Shown here piece after piece: positions 50,103 through 58,831 of a stretch of 64,000 nt of DNA. Origin of the DNA: Thermocatellispora tengchongensis (lineage in GTDB: Bacteria; Actinomycetota; Actinomycetes; Streptosporangiales; Streptosporangiaceae); contig NZ_JACHGN010000006.1 in NCBI RefSeq assembly GCF_014202315.1, forward strand, positions 1 through 64,000. The letters are read 5' to 3'. Made by a program: the position numbers and the translations under genes. Position 1 is the first letter of the stretch; each line of letters opens with the position of its first letter. The notes beneath the pieces are model-generated. The model was given only the letters and a program-made list of their open reading frames with translations, did not search any database and was not told where the DNA came from.

Positions 50103-50175
50103 TGCCAATCAATGGAACGCCGATCCGCCGGTGGGCGGGGTGCGGCCGGCCGGATCGGCGTGCCATTGGTTGGCA
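50103..50175. promoter_or_regulatory. Long inverted repeat between MFS and GH3 genes
   Basis: The left arm 50103-50131 begins TGCCAATCAATGG and the right arm 50146-50175 ends CCATTGGTTGGCA. The arms pair over about 27 of 29-30 positions, with two mismatches and one extra base, around a 14-base loop. It may be a pair of operator sites for both divergent genes, or a stem in the GH3 leader 44 bases before its start codon. Confidence 0.7.
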
Positions 50176-50218: not shown

Positions 50219-52066
50219 ATGTCACGCCCTGATCTCTTGTCTCACGACGGCGTCGCCTTCCGCGATCTGGACGGCGACGGCGTGATGGCCCCGTATGAGG
50301 ACCCCCGCCGCCCGGTCCCGGAACGGGTCGGCGACCTGCTCGCCCGGATGACCCTGGCCGAGAAGGCCGGACTGATGTGCCACGCCCCGGTCGCGGTGGC
50401 GCCCGACGGCGGCCTGGTGGAGGAGCCGTCCGGGCTCCTGCCCGCCGCGCCGACCACCCGCGCCGTGCGCGACCTGCACCTGCGCTGCCTGGCCCTGATG
50501 GCACCGGTCGCCGCCGGGCCGCTGGCCCGCTGGCACAACCGGCTGCAGGACCTGGCCGCGCGCAGCCGGCTGGGCATCCCGGTGCTGGTCTCGTCCGACC
50601 CGCGGCACTCGGCCAACGACAACCCGCTGACGTCGGTGCCCTCGGGCGGCTGCTCGCGCTGGCCGGAACCGCTCGGCTTCGGCGCCCTCCGCGATGAGGA
50701 CGCGGTGCGCGAGTTCGCCCGCGCGATCCGCGCGGAGTACACGGCGGTGGGCATCCGCATGGCGATCCACCCCATGGCCGACCTGGCCAGCGAGCCGCGC
50801 TGGTGCCGCACCGCGGGCACGTTCGGCGCCGACCCGGAGGTGGTGGGCCGCCTGGCCGGGGCGTACGTCGAGGAGCTGCAGGGCCCGCGGCTCGGCCCCG
50901 GCTCGGTGGCGAGCATGGTCAAGCACTGGCCGGGGGCGGGCCCGCAGGCCGGCGGCGAGGACGCCCACTTCGCCCACGGCAGCGACCAGGTCTACCCGGC
51001 CGGGCTGTTCGAGCTGCACCGCGACCAGTTCCGCCCGTCGCTGCGCGCCGGGGCCGCCGCGGTGATGCCGTACTACGGGCGGCCGGTGGGCGTGCCCGGC
51101 CTCGCCGGGGTGGGCTTCGCCTTCGACCGCGAGGTGGTGGCCGGGCTGCTGCGCCGCGACGAGGGCTACGACGGCATCGTGTGCACCGACTTCGGCCTGC
51201 TCACCGACGCCGTGCTCGCCGACGGGAGCGTGTGGCCGGCGCGGGCGTGGGGGGTGGAGCACCTGGGCCGGGCCGAGCGGGCGCTGCTGCTCCTCGACGC
51301 CGGGGTGGACCAGCTCGGCGGCGAGTGGTGCCCCGAGGTGATCACCGGGCTGGTCGCCGCCGGCCGGGTGAGCGAGGCCCGCATCGACGAGTCGGCGGGA
51401 CGCGTGCTGAGCGTGCTGTTCCGGCTCGGCCTGTTCGAGAACCCGTACGTGGACGAGGAGCGCGCGGTGGCGACCGTGGGCCGCGCGGACTTCGCCGCGG
51501 CCGGGGCGGCGGCGCAGCGGCGCTCGATGACGCTGCTGCGCGACGACGCCGGCATCCTGCCGCTCGCCTCCGGGATCCGCCTCTACGTCGAGGGCGTCGA
51601 TCCCCAGGTGGCGGCCCGGTACGCGACCGTGGCCGCCCGCCCGCAGGACGCCGATGCCGCGCTGGTGCGCATCGCCGCGCCGTACGAGCCGAGGGAGCGG
51701 CTGCCGGAGGCGCTGTTCCACCAGGGGCGGCTGGACCTGCCCGAGCCGGAGCGCGAGCACCTGTGCGCCCTGGCCGCCGCCCTGCCGACCGTGATCGACG
51801 TCTTCGTGGAGCGCCCGCCCGTGATCCCGGAGCTCGCCGAGAGCGGCGCGGCCCTGTTGGCCGACTTCGGCGCGGACGACGCGGCCGTGCTGGACGTGGT
51901 GTTCGGGCACGCCCGGCCGGAAGGCCGCCTGCCCGTCGAGCTGCCGCGCTCCATGGCCGCCGTCGAGGCCCACCCGGAGGATCTGCCGGGCGGCACCCCC
52001 GACCCGGTGTTCCCGCTCGGCCACGCCGCCGAGGCGCGGGACTGGCGCCCGCGCCCCGCCCGCTAG
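50219..52066 (+). CDS. GH3 glycoside hydrolase (cytosolic)
   Basis: A 615-residue GH3 enzyme without a signal peptide. The barrel carries GIVCTDFGLL with nucleophile Asp324, and KHWPGAGPQAGGEDAHF is the substrate loop. The alpha/beta domain includes RRSMTLLRDDAGILPL. The C-terminal fibronectin domain of longer GH3 enzymes is absent. It should cleave beta-glucosides or related glycosides brought in by the divergent MFS carrier. ATG at 50219 is preferred; a start at 50207 would add four residues. Its TAG overlaps the convergent monooxygenase stop as CTAG. Confidence 0.9.
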   Translation: MSRPDLLSHDGVAFRDLDGDGVMAPYEDPRRPVPERVGDLLARMTLAEKAGLMCHAPVAVAPDGGLVEEPSGLLPAAPTTRAVRDLHLRCLALMAPVAAGPLARWHNRLQDLAARSRLGIPVLVSSDPRHSANDNPLTSVPSGGCSRWPEPLGFGALRDEDAVREFARAIRAEYTAVGIRMAIHPMADLASEPRWCRTAGTFGADPEVVGRLAGAYVEELQGPRLGPGSVASMVKHWPGAGPQAGGEDAHFAHGSDQVYPAGLFELHRDQFRPSLRAGAAAVMPYYGRPVGVPGLAGVGFAFDREVVAGLLRRDEGYDGIVCTDFGLLTDAVLADGSVWPARAWGVEHLGRAERALLLLDAGVDQLGGEWCPEVITGLVAAGRVSEARIDESAGRVLSVLFRLGLFENPYVDEERAVATVGRADFAAAGAAAQRRSMTLLRDDAGILPLASGIRLYVEGVDPQVAARYATVAARPQDADAALVRIAAPYEPRERLPEALFHQGRLDLPEPEREHLCALAAALPTVIDVFVERPPVIPELAESGAALLADFGADDAAVLDVVFGHARPEGRLPVELPRSMAAVEAHPEDLPGGTPDPVFPLGHAAEARDWRPRPAR

Positions 52067-53712
52067 CCCCCGCCCGCTAGCTCCCGGCCCGTCGCCCGCA
52101 CCCCGGCGGCGGGCCGCGGCGCGCCGCCGAGGACCCGGGCCAGCAGGGCGTCCGGGGCGGCGGGATGCCCGCCGCGCCAGGCGATGTGCTGGTCGGGGCG
52201 GACCAGCACCAGGTCCTCGCCGTAGCGCCCGCGCAGGTGCGCGACCCCGCTCAGGTCGAGCAGCCGCATTGGGACCGACAGCCGGGCGGCGGCGTCCAGC
52301 AGCGGGGCCGGGTCGGCCCCGGCGGCCAGGCGGAGCAGGGTGAACCCCTCGCCGAGGGCGTCGTAGAGCGAACGGCCGTCCGGCAGCCAGGCGTGCGGCA
52401 GCCGGGCGCCCGGGTGGGCCGAGGGGGTGAAGGTCGCCAGCTCCGGCTCGGGCGCGGGCAGGCCGTCGGGGACCACCACGGGGGAGTCGCGGTAGTCGTA
52501 GCCGAGCACCAGCCCGAGGCTGTGGAACTCGGTGTCCTTGACGAGCAGGCGGCGGGCGAGCTCCTCGCGCAGCGCCCTGCCCGCGGTCTCGTCGCCGAGC
52601 TCCCCCGCGGCGAAGGACGGAGCCAGGAACGCCTCCTGCGCGCCCGCGGCGGCGATGGTGCGGGCGGCCACCGGGCGGCGTTCCGGCTCGTAGCTGTCCA
52701 GCAGCGACTCCGGCGCCCAGCCCTGCAAGACGGCGGCGAGCTTCCAGCCGATGTTGACCGCGTCGCCGACGCAGGTGTTGAAGCCGTGCCCGCCCCACGG
52801 CGGGTTGAGGTGGGCGGCGTCGCCGACCAGGAACACCCGCCTGCCCCGGTACCGGTCGGCGAGCAGCATGCGGGCCGACCAGGGGTCGGTGGCCAGCACC
52901 TCCACGTCGATGTCCGCGCCCGCCAGGGCCCGCACCAGATCGGCCGGGTCGTCGCCCGCGGCGTCCGGGCCGACGCCCTGGATGATCGCCCACCAGGTCC
53001 CGCCCAGGTCCAGCCGCCCCATCAGCCCGCCGCGCTCGGCGCCGATCACCCAGTAGTGCACGCCGTCCGCGCACAGCGGGCGCTCCTCCAGCGCCCGGCT
53101 GCGGAAGGTGACGCTCAGGTTGGGCATCGCTCCCGAGGAGCCCTCGTAGCGGGCGCCGATCGCCTGGCGGCTGACCCCGCCGCCGCCGTCGCAGCCCAGC
53201 AGGTAGCGCGCCGTCACCTCGCGGGTGCCCCCGCCGGGCTCCGCGACCGTCGCGCGCACCCCGTCCTCGCCGTCGGCGACGGCGGTGACCCGCCCGCCGA
53301 GCAGCAGCCGCACCGCGGGCAGCTCGGCGGCGGCCTCGCGCAGGACCCGCTCCACCAGCGGCTGCGGCGCCTGCTGGCCCGCCTCGGCGTACTCCTCGCG
53401 GCGGGTGACCGTCAGCCCGAACGCCTCCCGGAAGCGGGTGATCTCGTGCCCGAACAGGCCGGTGCAGAAGACCACGTCCTGGGCGTGCGCCACCGGCAGC
53501 GGCGCGGCGGCGCGCAGCCGCTCGGCCAGGCCCCAGCGGCGCAGGTGCTCCATGGTGCGGACGCTGGTCGTCTTGGCCCGCGGGCGCAACTGGTCCAGCG
53601 TGACCCGCGGCTCCACCACCAGCACGTCCACGCCGCGCCGGCCCAGCTCGATCGCGGCGGCCAGGCCGCTCGGCCCGCCCCCCGCGATCAGGACCGGAAC
53701 CTCCTCGGTCAC
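52063..53712 (-). CDS. FAD-dependent aromatic monooxygenase
   Basis: A 549-residue group A flavin hydroxylase. Motifs are GGGPSGLAAAIELGRRG (FAD, residues 11-27), GCDGGGGVSRQAIG (the DG motif) and VFLVGDAAHLNPPWGGHGFNT (the GD motif). The C-terminal thioredoxin-like domain resembles that of phenol or resorcinol hydroxylases. It should hydroxylate a phenolic ring with NAD(P)H and O2. The GTG start overlaps the TGA of a 30-codon ORF upstream. It ends an operon with a cupin dioxygenase-like protein and an esterase. Confidence 0.92.
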   Translation of the reverse strand: MTEEVPVLIAGGGPSGLAAAIELGRRGVDVLVVEPRVTLDQLRPRAKTTSVRTMEHLRRWGLAERLRAAAPLPVAHAQDVVFCTGLFGHEITRFREAFGLTVTRREEYAEAGQQAPQPLVERVLREAAAELPAVRLLLGGRVTAVADGEDGVRATVAEPGGGTREVTARYLLGCDGGGGVSRQAIGARYEGSSGAMPNLSVTFRSRALEERPLCADGVHYWVIGAERGGLMGRLDLGGTWWAIIQGVGPDAAGDDPADLVRALAGADIDVEVLATDPWSARMLLADRYRGRRVFLVGDAAHLNPPWGGHGFNTCVGDAVNIGWKLAAVLQGWAPESLLDSYEPERRPVAARTIAAAGAQEAFLAPSFAAGELGDETAGRALREELARRLLVKDTEFHSLGLVLGYDYRDSPVVVPDGLPAPEPELATFTPSAHPGARLPHAWLPDGRSLYDALGEGFTLLRLAAGADPAPLLDAAARLSVPMRLLDLSGVAHLRGRYGEDLVLVRPDQHIAWRGGHPAAPDALLARVLGGAPRPAAGVRATGRELAGGG

Positions 53713-53826: not shown

Positions 53827-54747
53827 TCAGGCGCCGAGCCGTTCCCGCAGGAAGGCGATCGTGCGCTCCAGCGCGTCGTACGCCGCGTCCGGCGCGCCGT
53901 GCCACATGTGGTCCGCGCCGTCGTAGACGTGCAGCCGGACGTCGGCGCCGGCGTCCCGCAGGGCGTCGCGCAGCCGCTCGCTCTGCGCGCAGGCGATGGC
54001 GCGGTCGTCCCGGCCGTGCAGCAGCAGGAAGGGCGGGGCGGCGGGGGACACGTGGGTGATCGGGCTGGCCTGGGCCGCCGCCTCGGGCGCGGCGGGCACC
54101 GGGGTGCCGAGCAGCCCGGCCTCGCGGCTGCCCGGGTCCATCGGGCCGGCGCCGGTCTCGGCCGCGACGGTACGCAGGTCGCAGGGGGCGTACCAGGCGG
54201 CGACGGCGCGTACGGCGCTGGAGGGCCCCGTCACGCCGACGGCGCCCTCCAGGGCGGGATCGTCCGGCGTGAGGCCCAGAACGGCGGCGAGGTGCCCGCC
54301 GGCCGACTCCCCCCACGCGGCGATCCGCTCCGGGTCCAGGCCCAGCTCCGGGGCGCGGGCGCGCAGCCAGCGCACGGCCGCCTTGACGTCGTGCGCCTGC
54401 GCCGGCCACACCGCCTCGCCGGAGAGCCGGTAGTCCGCGCTGGCCACGGCGATCCCGGCCTGCGCCACCCGCTCGAACGGCGTGGGGTCGGCGCCGGCGT
54501 ACGCCGGGCCGGGGGAGTGGCGGCTGCCCGTGCGCCACCCGCCGCCGTGCAGGAACACGACGACGGGCGCCGGCCCGCCGCCCTCGGGCGGCAGCACCAG
54601 GTCGAGTTCGAGGGGCCGGACGCCGGGGATCGCGGCGTAGGGGACGCCGGCCAGGACCCGGGTGCCGCCCGCTCCGGGACGGGCGGGCGGCGGCGGCGCC
54701 TCGTGCGCGGGCGGCGGCAGGGGCAGCGGCGCGCCGGGCACCGTCAC
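53827..54747 (-). CDS. Alpha/beta-hydrolase esterase (BD-FAE-like)
   Basis: A 306-residue esterase. The oxyanion motif HGGGW is at 67-71 and the nucleophile Ser148 is in GESAGG. The acid and histidine are in LLLHGRDD and DGADHMWHG. A Pro-rich segment of 25 residues precedes the fold. Family members include carbohydrate- and feruloyl-type esterases. The GTG overlaps the stop of the cupin gene (GTGA). The context suggests it cleaves an ester of a phenolic or sugar acid, which is inference. Confidence 0.88.
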   Translation of the reverse strand: MTVPGAPLPLPPPAHEAPPPPARPGAGGTRVLAGVPYAAIPGVRPLELDLVLPPEGGGPAPVVVFLHGGGWRTGSRHSPGPAYAGADPTPFERVAQAGIAVASADYRLSGEAVWPAQAHDVKAAVRWLRARAPELGLDPERIAAWGESAGGHLAAVLGLTPDDPALEGAVGVTGPSSAVRAVAAWYAPCDLRTVAAETGAGPMDPGSREAGLLGTPVPAAPEAAAQASPITHVSPAAPPFLLLHGRDDRAIACAQSERLRDALRDAGADVRLHVYDGADHMWHGAPDAAYDALERTIAFLRERLGA

Positions 54748-55304
54748 GCCTCCGCGTCCGGCCAGGCCAGGTCCGGCAGGAACTCCATGTTGTGCTCGCG
54801 CGCCGCGGCCTGCATGCGGGGGAGGTCCGGGACGAACGGCGGCTGGTCGGCGGTCGCGTGGTCGGTGGGCCGGCCCATGTGCTGGAAGAACCGCTCGAAG
54901 CCCCCGGTGGCGACGCCGAGCATCCGGGCCCGCTCCTCCACCTGGTAGGCGTGCGCCAGCCCGGCCGGGACGAACCCGAAGTCGCCCGGCTCCAGCAGCC
55001 GCGACCGCTTCGTCCCGTCGCGGTCGCGGACGTGCACCCGCACCTTGCCCTCCATGACGTAGAAGGTCTCGTGCGTGTCGCGGTGGACGTGCGCCGGGAT
55101 GAGCTTGCCCGCGGGCGCCTCACTGGTGAACACGCCGAACTGACCCTCGGTCTCGTCGCCGCTGAGCAGCACGGTGAACAGGTCGGTGAACAGCATCGCG
55201 TGCTCGCCCTCACCGCGCTTGAGGAAGTACGCCTCCGGTGCGCCCGGCAGGATGCCCCGCCACTGGGGGCCGCCTTCGGGGTCGATCAGGTACTCCAGGC
55301 TCAT
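54744..55304 (-). CDS. Quercetin 2,3-dioxygenase-like cupin
   Basis: A 186-residue cupin. The metal motif HVHRDTHETFYVMEG gives His-x-His-x4-Glu and the second motif supplies the last histidine (VPAGLAHAYQ), the ligand pattern of quercetinases. The C-terminal part is about one domain long, so it is a short, monocupin-type member, and some of these are not true quercetinases. ATG at 55304 follows GGGAGGCGCG; the frame extends 24 codons further without a good SD. It is first in an operon with an esterase and an aromatic hydroxylase. Confidence 0.78.
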   Translation of the reverse strand: MSLEYLIDPEGGPQWRGILPGAPEAYFLKRGEGEHAMLFTDLFTVLLSGDETEGQFGVFTSEAPAGKLIPAHVHRDTHETFYVMEGKVRVHVRDRDGTKRSRLLEPGDFGFVPAGLAHAYQVEERARMLGVATGGFERFFQHMGRPTDHATADQPPFVPDLPRMQAAAREHNMEFLPDLAWPDAEA

Positions 55305-55400
55305 CGCGCCTCCCGCTTCGTCGCCGACCCGGACATGATTCGCGACCAGCATCACGCGGGGCCAGGGGCCTGCCATTGAACGGCACGCGGTCTTGGCGGA

Positions 55401-56189
55401 TCAGTGGGCGCCGAGCATCCGGGAGATCGAGCGGGCGGCGGTGCGCACGGCCGGGCCGAGCTGCCGGGGCTCGGCGCCGCCGCGCGGCACCACGACCGAC
55501 AGCGCCGCCACCACGCGGTGCTCGGCGCCGAAGATGGGCGCGGCCACGGTCACCAGCGGTGCGGGGGAGGCACGGCGTACCGTCGCCATGCCCTGCCGGC
55601 GCACCTCCGCCAGCGTGCGGCGCAGCGCGTCGGGAGCGACCGGGACCTTCTCCGGCTCGTGCACCAGTGGCCGGGCGAGCACCTCGTCCTGGAAGGCGGG
55701 ATCGGCGAAGGCGAGCAGCACCAGCCCGACACCGGTGGAGTGCAGGGGCAGCCGCCCGCCCACGCGGTACAGCACCGGCATCGCGTGATGGGAGGACAGC
55801 CGCTCGACCAGCACCGCCTCGTCGCCCTCACGCACGGCCAGCAGCACGTGCTGGCGGGTGACCTCGGCCAGGTCCCCCATGAACGGCATCGCGACCTGCC
55901 GCAGCCCCTGCCCCCGCGGGGCCAGCGAGGCCACCTCCCACAGCCGCAGCCCGACCGAGAACCGGCCGTCGTCCCCCCGCTCCAGCGCGCCCCAGGCCGT
56001 CAGCCTGTTCGCCAGCCGAAGCGCCGAGCTCGGCGGGATGCCGCTGCGCCGGCTCAGCTCGCCCAGCGTCAGCGACCGGTGCCCGGCGTCGAACGCCGCC
56101 AGCAACGACAGCGCCCGGTCCACCACCGGCTCCCCCTGCGGCGGACGCCGCCCCCGCACCCGGTGCGCCGGCGCGCTCGCCCCGCTCAC
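55401..56189 (-). CDS. IclR-family transcriptional regulator
   Basis: A 262-residue IclR protein. The winged helix is at about residues 15-75 (LTLGELSRRSGIPPSSALRLANRL) and the effector domain follows (HHAMPVLYRVGGRLPLHSTGVG, then the usual GMATVRR). GTG at 56189 is the best start. The frame stays open on the same strand for 280 further codons, but only across the repeat array. IclR proteins control aromatic and glyoxylate catabolism, so the operon downstream on the same strand is its likely target. Confidence 0.9.
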   Translation of the reverse strand: MSGASAPAHRVRGRRPPQGEPVVDRALSLLAAFDAGHRSLTLGELSRRSGIPPSSALRLANRLTAWGALERGDDGRFSVGLRLWEVASLAPRGQGLRQVAMPFMGDLAEVTRQHVLLAVREGDEAVLVERLSSHHAMPVLYRVGGRLPLHSTGVGLVLLAFADPAFQDEVLARPLVHEPEKVPVAPDALRRTLAEVRRQGMATVRRASPAPLVTVAAPIFGAEHRVVAALSVVVPRGGAEPRQLGPAVRTAARSISRMLGAH

Positions 56190-56436
56190 GACCCGCCCGC
56201 CCTCGGCACCCGGGGGAACGCCCCCACCGGCCGGGACCGGCCGCACAACACTTTCGTCATCGAACGGCAATGTACCTGACACGCGTCCGACACGGCAGAC
56301 CTCGCTTCCGGCGCCCCGCCCCCCTGCCGGCCTCACAAGATCACGGCGCGGAGCTCCCCGCCCTTCGTGGCGCCGCCGTTCCCCGCCCATGGTGGCGCGC
56401 CCGCTTCCCGCCGTTCCCGGCCGTGCCGCCCCCTCG

Positions 56437-56717
56437 CCCGCGACCGCTTGCTCGCGACCGCTTGCTCGCGACCGCTTGCTCGCGACCGCTTGCTCGCGAC
56501 CGCTTGCTCGCGGCCTCTTGCTCGCGGCCTCTTGCTCGCGGCCTCTTGCTCGCGGCCTCTTGCTCGCGGCCTCTTGCCCGCGGTCTCTTGCCCGCGGTCT
56601 CTTGCCTGTGATCCCGTGCCTGTGGCCTGGGGCGAGCTGGTCGGGGGGCTCGTGGCTGGAGCCTGTGACCTGTTGCCTGTGACCTCTCGCCCGCGACCGC
56701 TTGCCCGCGCCCCCGCT
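56437..56717. repeat. 14-bp tandem repeat array (about 20 units)
   Basis: The array is built on a 14-base period. Five units are CTCGCGACCGCTTG (56437-56506, the first with CCCG), five are CTCGCGGCCTCTTG (56507-56576) and two are CCCGCGGTCTCTTG (56577-56604). Two degenerate units follow to 56632, then about two unrecognisable units and four more (56662-56717). The total of 281 bases equals 20 periods plus one. There are no spacers, so it is not a CRISPR array. Blocks of identical units show recent local duplication of different variants. Confidence 0.95.
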
Positions 56718-57345
56718 CCCGAGGCCCTGACAGGCACTCGGCAGGACCTCGCCATCCGCATCCGCCGCGCCGTGGACGCCCTTCCCGGCGGCCTCTCCTT
56801 GACCGCCACCCCCCGCGAGCATCCGCCCGCGTACCCGGCTCCCCGCGCATGTGCGCGGGCGCGTGGCCGGCCTGAAGCTCTTCGCTCCGTGCTCACGCGC
56901 TTCCTCACGGCCTGACCGCCGCTTGATCCGCGCCCCGGAGCCGGTGGGAGCGGTGGGGAGACGCCGCCGTCCCCGTGCTGGGAGGTTCGGGGGGACGGGA
57001 CCGATCTGGCGTGGTTCGCCCCGTATCAATGGGAGGCCGCGGTTTTGTGCTGGTAAATCCCGGGGGTGAGCGGTGCGGCCCTATCGGTATTCGGGTGCGG
57101 ATGCCCGCGCTGTGCGCGGGTCCCGGCCGGGGCGGGAAATATCGGTGCCGTGCGGAAAGAAACGGCAAACGTCGTCGCGGGAAACTTTGCCTCACCTGCG
57201 GATATTCGCCCTCGCCCGGTTACCGGGGCAGACGGCTTCCGGTGGGTATTATCGGCAGTCGCCGGATGGCTTGTTTTGTTTTTTCGGAGCACGTCTCTGC
57301 TTGTTGAGAAAAGTCCGCACAAGTATCGGGGATATCAGGCCCTGC

Positions 57346-57374
57346 GTGTCAGTGAGGGGCGCGGAGCGAATAAT
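57346..57374 (+). promoter_or_regulatory. Candidate promoter of the exopolysaccharide operon
   Basis: GTGTCA at 57346-57351 and AATAAT at 57369-57374 are 17 bases apart. Transcription would begin about 22 bases before the ATG at 57404. The match to consensus is partial. Confidence 0.35.
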
Positions 57375-57403
57375 GACGGAAGTCTCTGATGCTGGAGAAC
57401 GCG

Positions 57404-58831
57404 ATGGCCGCGCCCGTCACCGGTGAGCGGTCATCCCCGGTCGCACCGGTACGGCGCGGTGCGTCGTGGCGGCGGGGCGGAGCGGGGCGTGCGCCGCGGA
57501 AGCCGGCCGGGAGGCTGCGCGGGGTCGCGGTGCCGCTCGGGCTGATGGGCGTGGACGTGCTGGCACTCGCCCTCGGGCTGGTCTGCGCGGCGCCGGCCGG
57601 CACGGCCCCGGGCGCGCGGGAGTGGACCGTCCTGATGATGGCGCTGGTCGTGCCGCTCAACGCGGCGGGCGGCCTGTACCGCGTCCGCCTGTTCTCCGGG
57701 CCCCTGCACGGTGTGGCGCGCCTGGCCGGCAGCGGCCTGCTCACGGCGGCGGTGGCGCTGGCCCCGGGCTGGGGGGTGTCCGACCCGCGATGGGCCTGGG
57801 AGGTGCTCGTGGCCGGCGGCGTCTTCACGGGGGCGGCGGTGTGCGGGCGGTGGGTCTTCCACCGCGTGTCTCGGCCGGGCGAGGGCCGGGCGACGCTCGT
57901 CGTGGGCGGGGGGCGGCATGCCGGCCGGCTGGTGGCGACCCTGCTGGCCCATCCCGAGTACCGGCTGCGGCCGGTCGGCGTCGTCAGCGAGCGGCGCGCC
58001 GGGGTTCCCGGCGTGCCGGTGCTCGGACGGCCCGCGGGGCTCGCCGACATCCTGCGCCTGCACCCCGTCCACACCGTGATCGTCGCCGGGGTGGGACGCG
58101 CGGCGCGCGAGTCGGCCCGGGTGGCCAGGGCCTCGGGGTGCGAGGTGCTGTTCGCCCCGGAACCGGGGGACGCGCTGACCCAGATCGTGCCCCTCGGCGA
58201 GCACGTGCGGAGCTTCCCCCTGGTACGCATGCGCCCGCTCCCGCAGGCCCGGCCGACCTGGCCGCTGAAGCGGGCCCTGGACTGCGTGGTGGCCGTGACG
58301 GGCCTGGTGCTCGGCCTCCCCGTGCTGATCGTGTGCGCGCTCGCCCTGCGCCGCGAGGTGGGGCCCCGCGTGCTGTTCCGGCAGGAGCGGGTCGGTCTGG
58401 ACGGCCGCCCGGTGCAGGTGCTGAAGCTGCGCACGTACGAGCCGGAGGACGCCCGGGAGGCCGCCGTGCGCTGGAGCATCGCCGGCGACAGCCGGATCGG
58501 CCCGGCCGGACGCCTGATGCGCCGGCTGTCCCTGGACGAGCTGCCCCAGTTCTGGAACGTGCTGCGCGGGGAGATGAGCGTCGTGGGCCCGCGGCCCGAG
58601 CGACCCTACTTCGTGGAGCGGTTCTCGGCGATGGTGCCGGGCTACGACCTGCGACACCGGGTCCCGGCGGGGATCACCGGCTGGGCCCAGGTGCACGGCC
58701 TGCGCGGCGACACCTCCATCGAGGACCGGGTGCGGTTCGACAACCACTACATCGACGACTGGTCGCTGCGCGGCGACCTGAAGATCATGGCCCGGACGGT
58801 GTGGTGCATGCTGCGTTCGGGCGGCGCCTAG
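57404..58831 (+). CDS. Polyprenyl glycosylphosphotransferase (exopolysaccharide priming enzyme)
   Basis: A 475-residue WbaP/CpsE-type protein. Four N-terminal helices and a CoA-binding-like domain (LVVGGGRHAGRLVATLL) lead to a further helix at about 285. The sugar-transferase domain follows, with FRQERVG, KLRT and the catalytic region DELPQFWNVLRGEMSVVGPRP. It transfers a sugar-1-phosphate to undecaprenyl phosphate, the first step of a repeat unit. ATG at 57404 has GGAG seven bases upstream; ATG at 57389 would add five residues and include that SD. It opens the operon. Confidence 0.92.
   Translation: MAAPVTGERSSPVAPVRRGASWRRGGAGRAPRKPAGRLRGVAVPLGLMGVDVLALALGLVCAAPAGTAPGAREWTVLMMALVVPLNAAGGLYRVRLFSGPLHGVARLAGSGLLTAAVALAPGWGVSDPRWAWEVLVAGGVFTGAAVCGRWVFHRVSRPGEGRATLVVGGGRHAGRLVATLLAHPEYRLRPVGVVSERRAGVPGVPVLGRPAGLADILRLHPVHTVIVAGVGRAARESARVARASGCEVLFAPEPGDALTQIVPLGEHVRSFPLVRMRPLPQARPTWPLKRALDCVVAVTGLVLGLPVLIVCALALRREVGPRVLFRQERVGLDGRPVQVLKLRTYEPEDAREAAVRWSIAGDSRIGPAGRLMRRLSLDELPQFWNVLRGEMSVVGPRPERPYFVERFSAMVPGYDLRHRVPAGITGWAQVHGLRGDTSIEDRVRFDNHYIDDWSLRGDLKIMARTVWCMLRSGGA

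Follow-up and report, generated by a model that had tools for sequence, protein, structure and literature searches.

A block-structured 14-bp minisatellite between an IclR-family regulator gene and a polysaccharide gene cluster in Thermocatellispora tengchongensis

The locus and the anatomy of the array

The stretch of DNA analysed here (the window, 64,000 nucleotides of the Thermocatellispora tengchongensis genome) contains a long spacer between two divergent genes. On the minus strand lies the gene of an IclR-family regulator (55401-56189; Pfam IclR_C 7e-30, HTH_IclR 5.6e-13), for which we use the GTG start at 56189, since several orthologues align from residue 1; a codon-based gene caller prefers 56126. 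On the plus strand, a sugar transferase gene (57389-58831; Pfam Bac_transf 4.2e-58, CoA_binding_3) opens a polysaccharide gene cluster that continues downstream with Wzy_C, MurJ, Polysacc_deac_1 and glycosyltransferase domains; the codon-based caller places its start further in than 57389, at 57530. Beyond the regulator gene are a cupin gene (54744-55376, by Pfam) and an FAD monooxygenase gene (52063-53712). No gene was called between the IclR and sugar transferase genes, in agreement with the gene-free position assigned to the array in a preliminary description of the locus. Measured to the starts at 56189 and 57389, the distance from the array is 243 bp on the IclR side and 675 bp on the side of the sugar transferase gene.

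Read unit by unit, the array consists of about 20 tandem copies of a 14-base unit and occupies 56433-56713, slightly to the left of the span 56437-56717 first assigned to it; the copy number comes from a draft assembly (62 contigs) and may be off. TRF detected it at 56439-56605 (period 14, 11.9 copies, 97% matches) with a score of 236, the highest in the window. Simulating the window 60 times with an order-2 Markov model gave a largest TRF score of 130 and a median of the maxima of 65, and the minisatellite originally described is therefore real. The 14-base period is exact over its first 196 bases (56433-56628, plus strand), which contain 14 units: one CTCGCCCGCGACCG, four CTTGCTCGCGACCG, five CTTGCTCGCGGCCT, two CTTGCCCGCGGTCT and two diverged units. 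When only the 11-base core is considered, the blocks of five, five and two identical copies that had been reported are correct, with GCGACCGCTTG five times in succession, GCGGCCTCTTG five times and GCGGTCTCTTG twice. Beyond this regular part the exact period fails: 29 poorly matching bases (56629-56657), equal to two unit lengths plus one base, shift the phase by 1 bp, and are followed on the same strand by four diverged units (56658-56713). The unit at 56686 is nonetheless identical to that at 56433. A faint 7-bp sub-period in 56601-56713 (0.47 identity at lag 7) suggests that an older heptamer may lie beneath the 14-bp unit. The array is adjoined by a second, weaker tandem repeat (56353-56416, plus strand; TRF 25 bp x 2.6, 74% matches, score 79), and far from it, at 2355-2407, the window has a perfect 11-bp tandem repeat of 4.8 copies, ACGGCAGGGGA (TRF).

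The order of the units is informative about the history of the array. Its 18 clear units form 17 neighbouring pairs, one of them spanning the interruption at 56629-56657. Eight of these pairs consist of identical units, a number reached in none of 20000 permutations of unit order. In the first 14 units mean identity is 0.92 between neighbours (lag 1) and declines steadily with distance, to 0.73 at lag 7. Block order and identity decay together form the pattern expected of repeated local copying and support the recent slippage or unequal exchange first proposed, either of which could be the cause. The array thus has the properties by which minisatellites are recognized, namely head-to-tail units of about 10-60 bp repeated above chance, with neighbours more similar to each other than distant units are. 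It is not a CRISPR array, in which repeats are separated by unique spacers, since here the units directly abut.

The flanking genes are not side by side in the relatives compared. In 120 genomes of relatives searched, the top ten matches to the IclR protein show 57-76% identity. In the ten loci of 9-20 kb that contain them, a match to the FAD monooxygenase is encoded in six and one to the cupin in two; no sugar transferase match reaches E 1e-10 in any of the ten. In all seven relatives with matches to both proteins (each at E 1e-60 or better; 120 genomes searched for IclR and 150 for the sugar transferase, with the IclR match only about 50% identical, and possibly a paralogue, in two of the seven) the two genes are not neighbours, being on different contigs in six and 2.7 Mb apart in one. 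The array would therefore sit at a join between two unrelated gene blocks that seems peculiar to this genome. A search of genome contigs with the sugar transferase returned only distant matches among the best 80 loci, the top one with 40% identity over most of the length.

Distribution of the unit and frequency of comparable arrays

As an array, the 14-bp unit was found nowhere else, whether in the genome it belongs to or in 341 genomes of the family. A two-unit pattern with up to 3 mismatches had 14 matches in the own genome (11.65 Mb, 62 contigs), 13 of them in the array, and the remaining one (L022, contig 11) lies next to a weak repeat of the same period but with a different unit (14 bp, 2.7 copies, score 53). 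When the same genome was searched for similarity to the array, the array itself (E = 3e-146) was followed by a match of only 31 bases (E = 0.003), at a locus where TRF found no tandem repeats. The genome-wide search for other arrays of this unit, suggested in the preliminary description, thus returned none besides that of the window in 11.65 Mb, and a dispersed repeat family of the MIRU-like type is discarded because the unit is not found at several places in the genome. In the family, the two-unit pattern was present in 39 of the 341 genomes, the source genome included, with at most 3 matches in each of the others; this is not above the approximately 47 of 341 (a hand count of the table) obtained with a reversed control pattern, which argues against an array conserved across the family. 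TRF, run on nine of the loci recovered by the unit and array searches, found short 14-bp repeats partly resembling the unit in three relatives: G002 (L137, the same place as L002; 3.9 copies), G097 (L138; 2.3 copies) and G025 (L006; 2.6 copies). Since pairs of this kind are what the pattern search favours, we read these repeats and the one at L022 as convergence.

Arrays of this class are, by contrast with this particular unit, common in the family as far as our samples reach. With the TRF criteria set at a period of 7-60, 4 or more copies, 80% or more matches and a score of 120 or more, we found 18 arrays (16.9 per Mb), with unlike unit sequences among those listed, in a 1.064-Mb sample of the genome composed of the window and 400 kb of contigs 6 and 2 (464 kb in all) and 600 kb spread over many contigs; the spread 600 kb alone contained 9 (15 per Mb). 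By a simple codon-based gene caller that ignores genes cut at stretch ends, 14 of the 18 were called intergenic, although 81% of the sample was called coding, and so were all eight arrays with a period not divisible by three; two of the 14 calls (L218:1059 and L266:1378, the latter among the eight) are less certain, as no gene was called on one side. Examples called intergenic are a 14-bp unit x 10.4 on contig 6 at 200541-200684 (L187:16541-16684), a 20-bp unit x 12.2 (L266:1378-1621), a 21-bp unit x 9 (L191:14438-14623), and arrays of period 22 (L272:3925-4066) and 19 (L216:5129-5244). The first three of these resemble the window array in size, intergenic call, copy number and score range, but their unit sequences differ from it and they are not among the matches listed by the array similarity search. 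Five relatives had 12 arrays in 1.2 Mb (4 in 400 kb, and 1, 0, 4 and 3 in 200 kb each); the density in our genome is nominally above that of the pooled relatives (10 per Mb), with p = 0.20 for the difference. The idea that this genome is exceptionally rich in repeats, which had seemed plausible from an early comparison (18 arrays in our 1.064 Mb and 5 in 0.8 Mb of relatives), was weakened when two more relatives were included and was abandoned. The ten IclR orthologue loci (186 kb, 1 array) were omitted from the density comparison, as they were chosen and not spread.

Candidate control sites and alternative readings of the array

The preliminary description considered that the array could be a variable regulatory spacer. 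In that case its length would alter the distance to, or the upstream activation of, the polysaccharide cluster or the IclR gene, and colonies or strains would differ in expression. Upstream tandem repeats have been found to go with expression changes in another actinobacterium, M. tuberculosis (PMC2734929, PMC12817950): the length of the repeat upstream of fpg1 is variable and goes with expression, in what PMC2734929 presents as the first bacterial case of its kind, and promoter repeats vary within cultures according to PMC12817950. Given this precedent, and with divergent genes starting on either side of our array, an effect on their expression is conceivable, and it would also fit the recent block-wise copying and the presence of shorter repeats upstream of IclR in three relatives (L203, 18 bp x 3.6; L202, 18 bp x 2.1; L204, 13 bp x 3.0). 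The array and the M. tuberculosis repeats (fpg1, dop, lpdA, cysG) are alike in being tandem, upstream of genes and in a GC-rich actinobacterium (PMC2734929, PMC12817950). However, those repeats are in or close to promoters, only 12 bp upstream of the gene in the case of lpdA (PMC12817950), they have units of 57 and 58 bp for dop and lpdA, and an expression effect is reported for fpg1 and lpdA (PMC2734929, PMC12817950), whereas the array described here is separated from the starts by 243 and 675 bp and would lie beyond the likely control sites on both sides.

On the IclR side, the candidate control site is an operator-like motif, YCATTGAAYGGMA, that we read by eye from the regions upstream of the IclR orthologues. 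A looser pattern of this motif is present at 7 of the 10 IclR loci, in each case no more than about 200 bp ahead of the IclR start, and absent from L201, L209 and L210; the count is not independent, as the motif was derived from these same loci. With up to 2 mismatches, YCATTGAAYGGMA has 10 matches at 8 places in the window, where 1.5 matches are expected, and none in the array (56433-56713). One of them, TCATCGAACGGCA (56257-56269, plus strand, one mismatch), is located between the IclR start and the array, 163 bases from the latter; CCATTGAACGGCA (55373-55385, plus strand), an exact match to the motif at a place where the matches span 55371-55385, is beside the cupin start; two further places (50103-50117 and 50163-50175) precede a glycoside hydrolase family 3 gene, and the others are at 55876, inside the IclR gene, and far away at 437, 3119 and 39448. 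The motif is thus found before the glycoside hydrolase family 3, cupin and IclR genes as well as, in its looser form, upstream of IclR orthologues, and the three motif-bearing genes likely constitute an IclR regulon.

On the other side, the 300 bases before the sugar transferase gene (57089-57388, plus strand) are AT-richer, with a G+C content of about 0.56-0.67 per 100 bp, and dips in G+C also precede the sugar transferase match in the plus-strand loci of three relatives (L303, L305 and L307). The only sigma-70-like match in 56100-57450 is at 57346-57374. The promoter of the polysaccharide cluster is probably contained in this AT-richer stretch, 375 bp or more from the array, and the likely control sites would then be nearer to the genes than the array is on either side. 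Among the ten IclR loci of relatives a single array reaches the size criteria (L205:14856-14971), about 4 kb from the IclR gene, and none does so among the six best TRF results of each of the nine sugar transferase loci. Similar arrays with other units are, moreover, numerous elsewhere in the genome. Two relatives of one genus have 18-bp repeats of similar units directly before the IclR start (L203:10622-10685 and L202:9668-9705), and by their position these are better candidates for promoter repeats than the array of the window. With operator-like sites outside the array and hundreds of base pairs between it and either start, we consider an influence of array length on the neighbouring genes improbable, and we give distinctly less credit to its stricter form, a length-variable control element by which colonies would switch or grade polysaccharide output through unit-by-unit slippage of the 14-bp repeat.

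A protein-binding array, also proposed at the outset, could serve the neighbouring IclR regulator or a chromosome-organizing protein. About 20 evenly spaced copies would suit such a role, and the first-block units, CTTGCTCGCGACCG, contain the palindrome TCGCGA. This palindrome is not maintained, however: the corresponding sequence is TCGCGG, which is no palindrome, in the second block and CCGCGG in the third. The unit is not dispersed in the genome, and the operator-like motif of the IclR cluster differs from it, with all its matches outside the array, which speaks against an operator array of the adjacent regulator insofar as the motif is indeed the operator. We therefore regard a binding role as slightly less probable still than the switching of polysaccharide output, and highly unlikely in itself.

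The possibility that the array encodes a repeat within a short protein, on either strand, had been dismissed in the preliminary description on the grounds that 14 is not a multiple of the codon length. The conclusion is right but the argument is not, because three units make 42 bp and hence a 14-residue repeat in every frame. Nor are all frames open, as had been stated: stops interrupt two plus-strand frames, one at 56680 and the other at 56609 and 56666, which leaves one plus-strand frame (56367-56915) and all three minus-strand frames open. The open frames, and a 90-base patch at 56730 that is weakly coding-like in the open plus-strand frame (0.10 per codon), would favour a coding repeat, but a stop-free unit leaves any frame open by itself, and the codon usage of the array is non-coding. 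In a codon model built on 182299 codons from the same genome, the score through the array is -0.40 per codon in the open plus-strand frame and -0.44, -0.65 and -0.39 in the minus-strand frames, compared with +0.25 per codon in each of the flanking IclR and sugar transferase genes; in 90-base steps from 56370 to 56729 all six frames are negative. The 182-residue plus-strand frame has no Pfam match. Codon usage and Pfam together reject a coding repeat, which we consider barely credible. The weakly coding-like patch, 3' of the array (56730-56819), is perhaps a gene remnant. A structured RNA is likewise dismissed, as no Rfam family matched 55000-58000 up to E = 1 and folding of the array as single-strand DNA is weak (z = -1.41; 14 of 200 shuffled sequences folded as well or better); no terminator was found in 56100-57450.

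Origin and significance of the array

The array is, very probably, an ordinary, locus-specific intergenic minisatellite produced by copying slippage or unequal exchange. Its starting point could have been a near-repeat that arose by chance in the GC-rich spacer of 1.2 kb, a region under weak constraint; replication slippage or unequal exchange would then have multiplied this near-repeat, one or a few units per event. Such copying would generate blocks of identical neighbouring units, as in the regular part, and the 3' end would be an older, decayed portion of the same array. Copy number probably drifts, presumably with little effect on either flanking gene.

Minisatellites are a standard class of variable segment in bacteria, as described in PMC2884548, where the authors' own search took units of at least 20 bp. 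Our array resembles the bacterial minisatellites or VNTR loci treated there in its short head-to-tail units, its near-identical neighbours and its restriction to a single locus; VNTR loci are, however, characterized by copy-number variation between strains, whereas this array is known from one genome. Searches of the literature listed no title on this locus.

As it stands, the array carries little weight beyond being a plausible candidate typing marker, as first suggested, for strains of one species and a further example of the arrays found in long GC-rich spacers. Were its copy number shown to vary, and polysaccharide expression with it, promoter-repeat variation of the M. tuberculosis type would be known from another kind of GC-rich bacterium as well.
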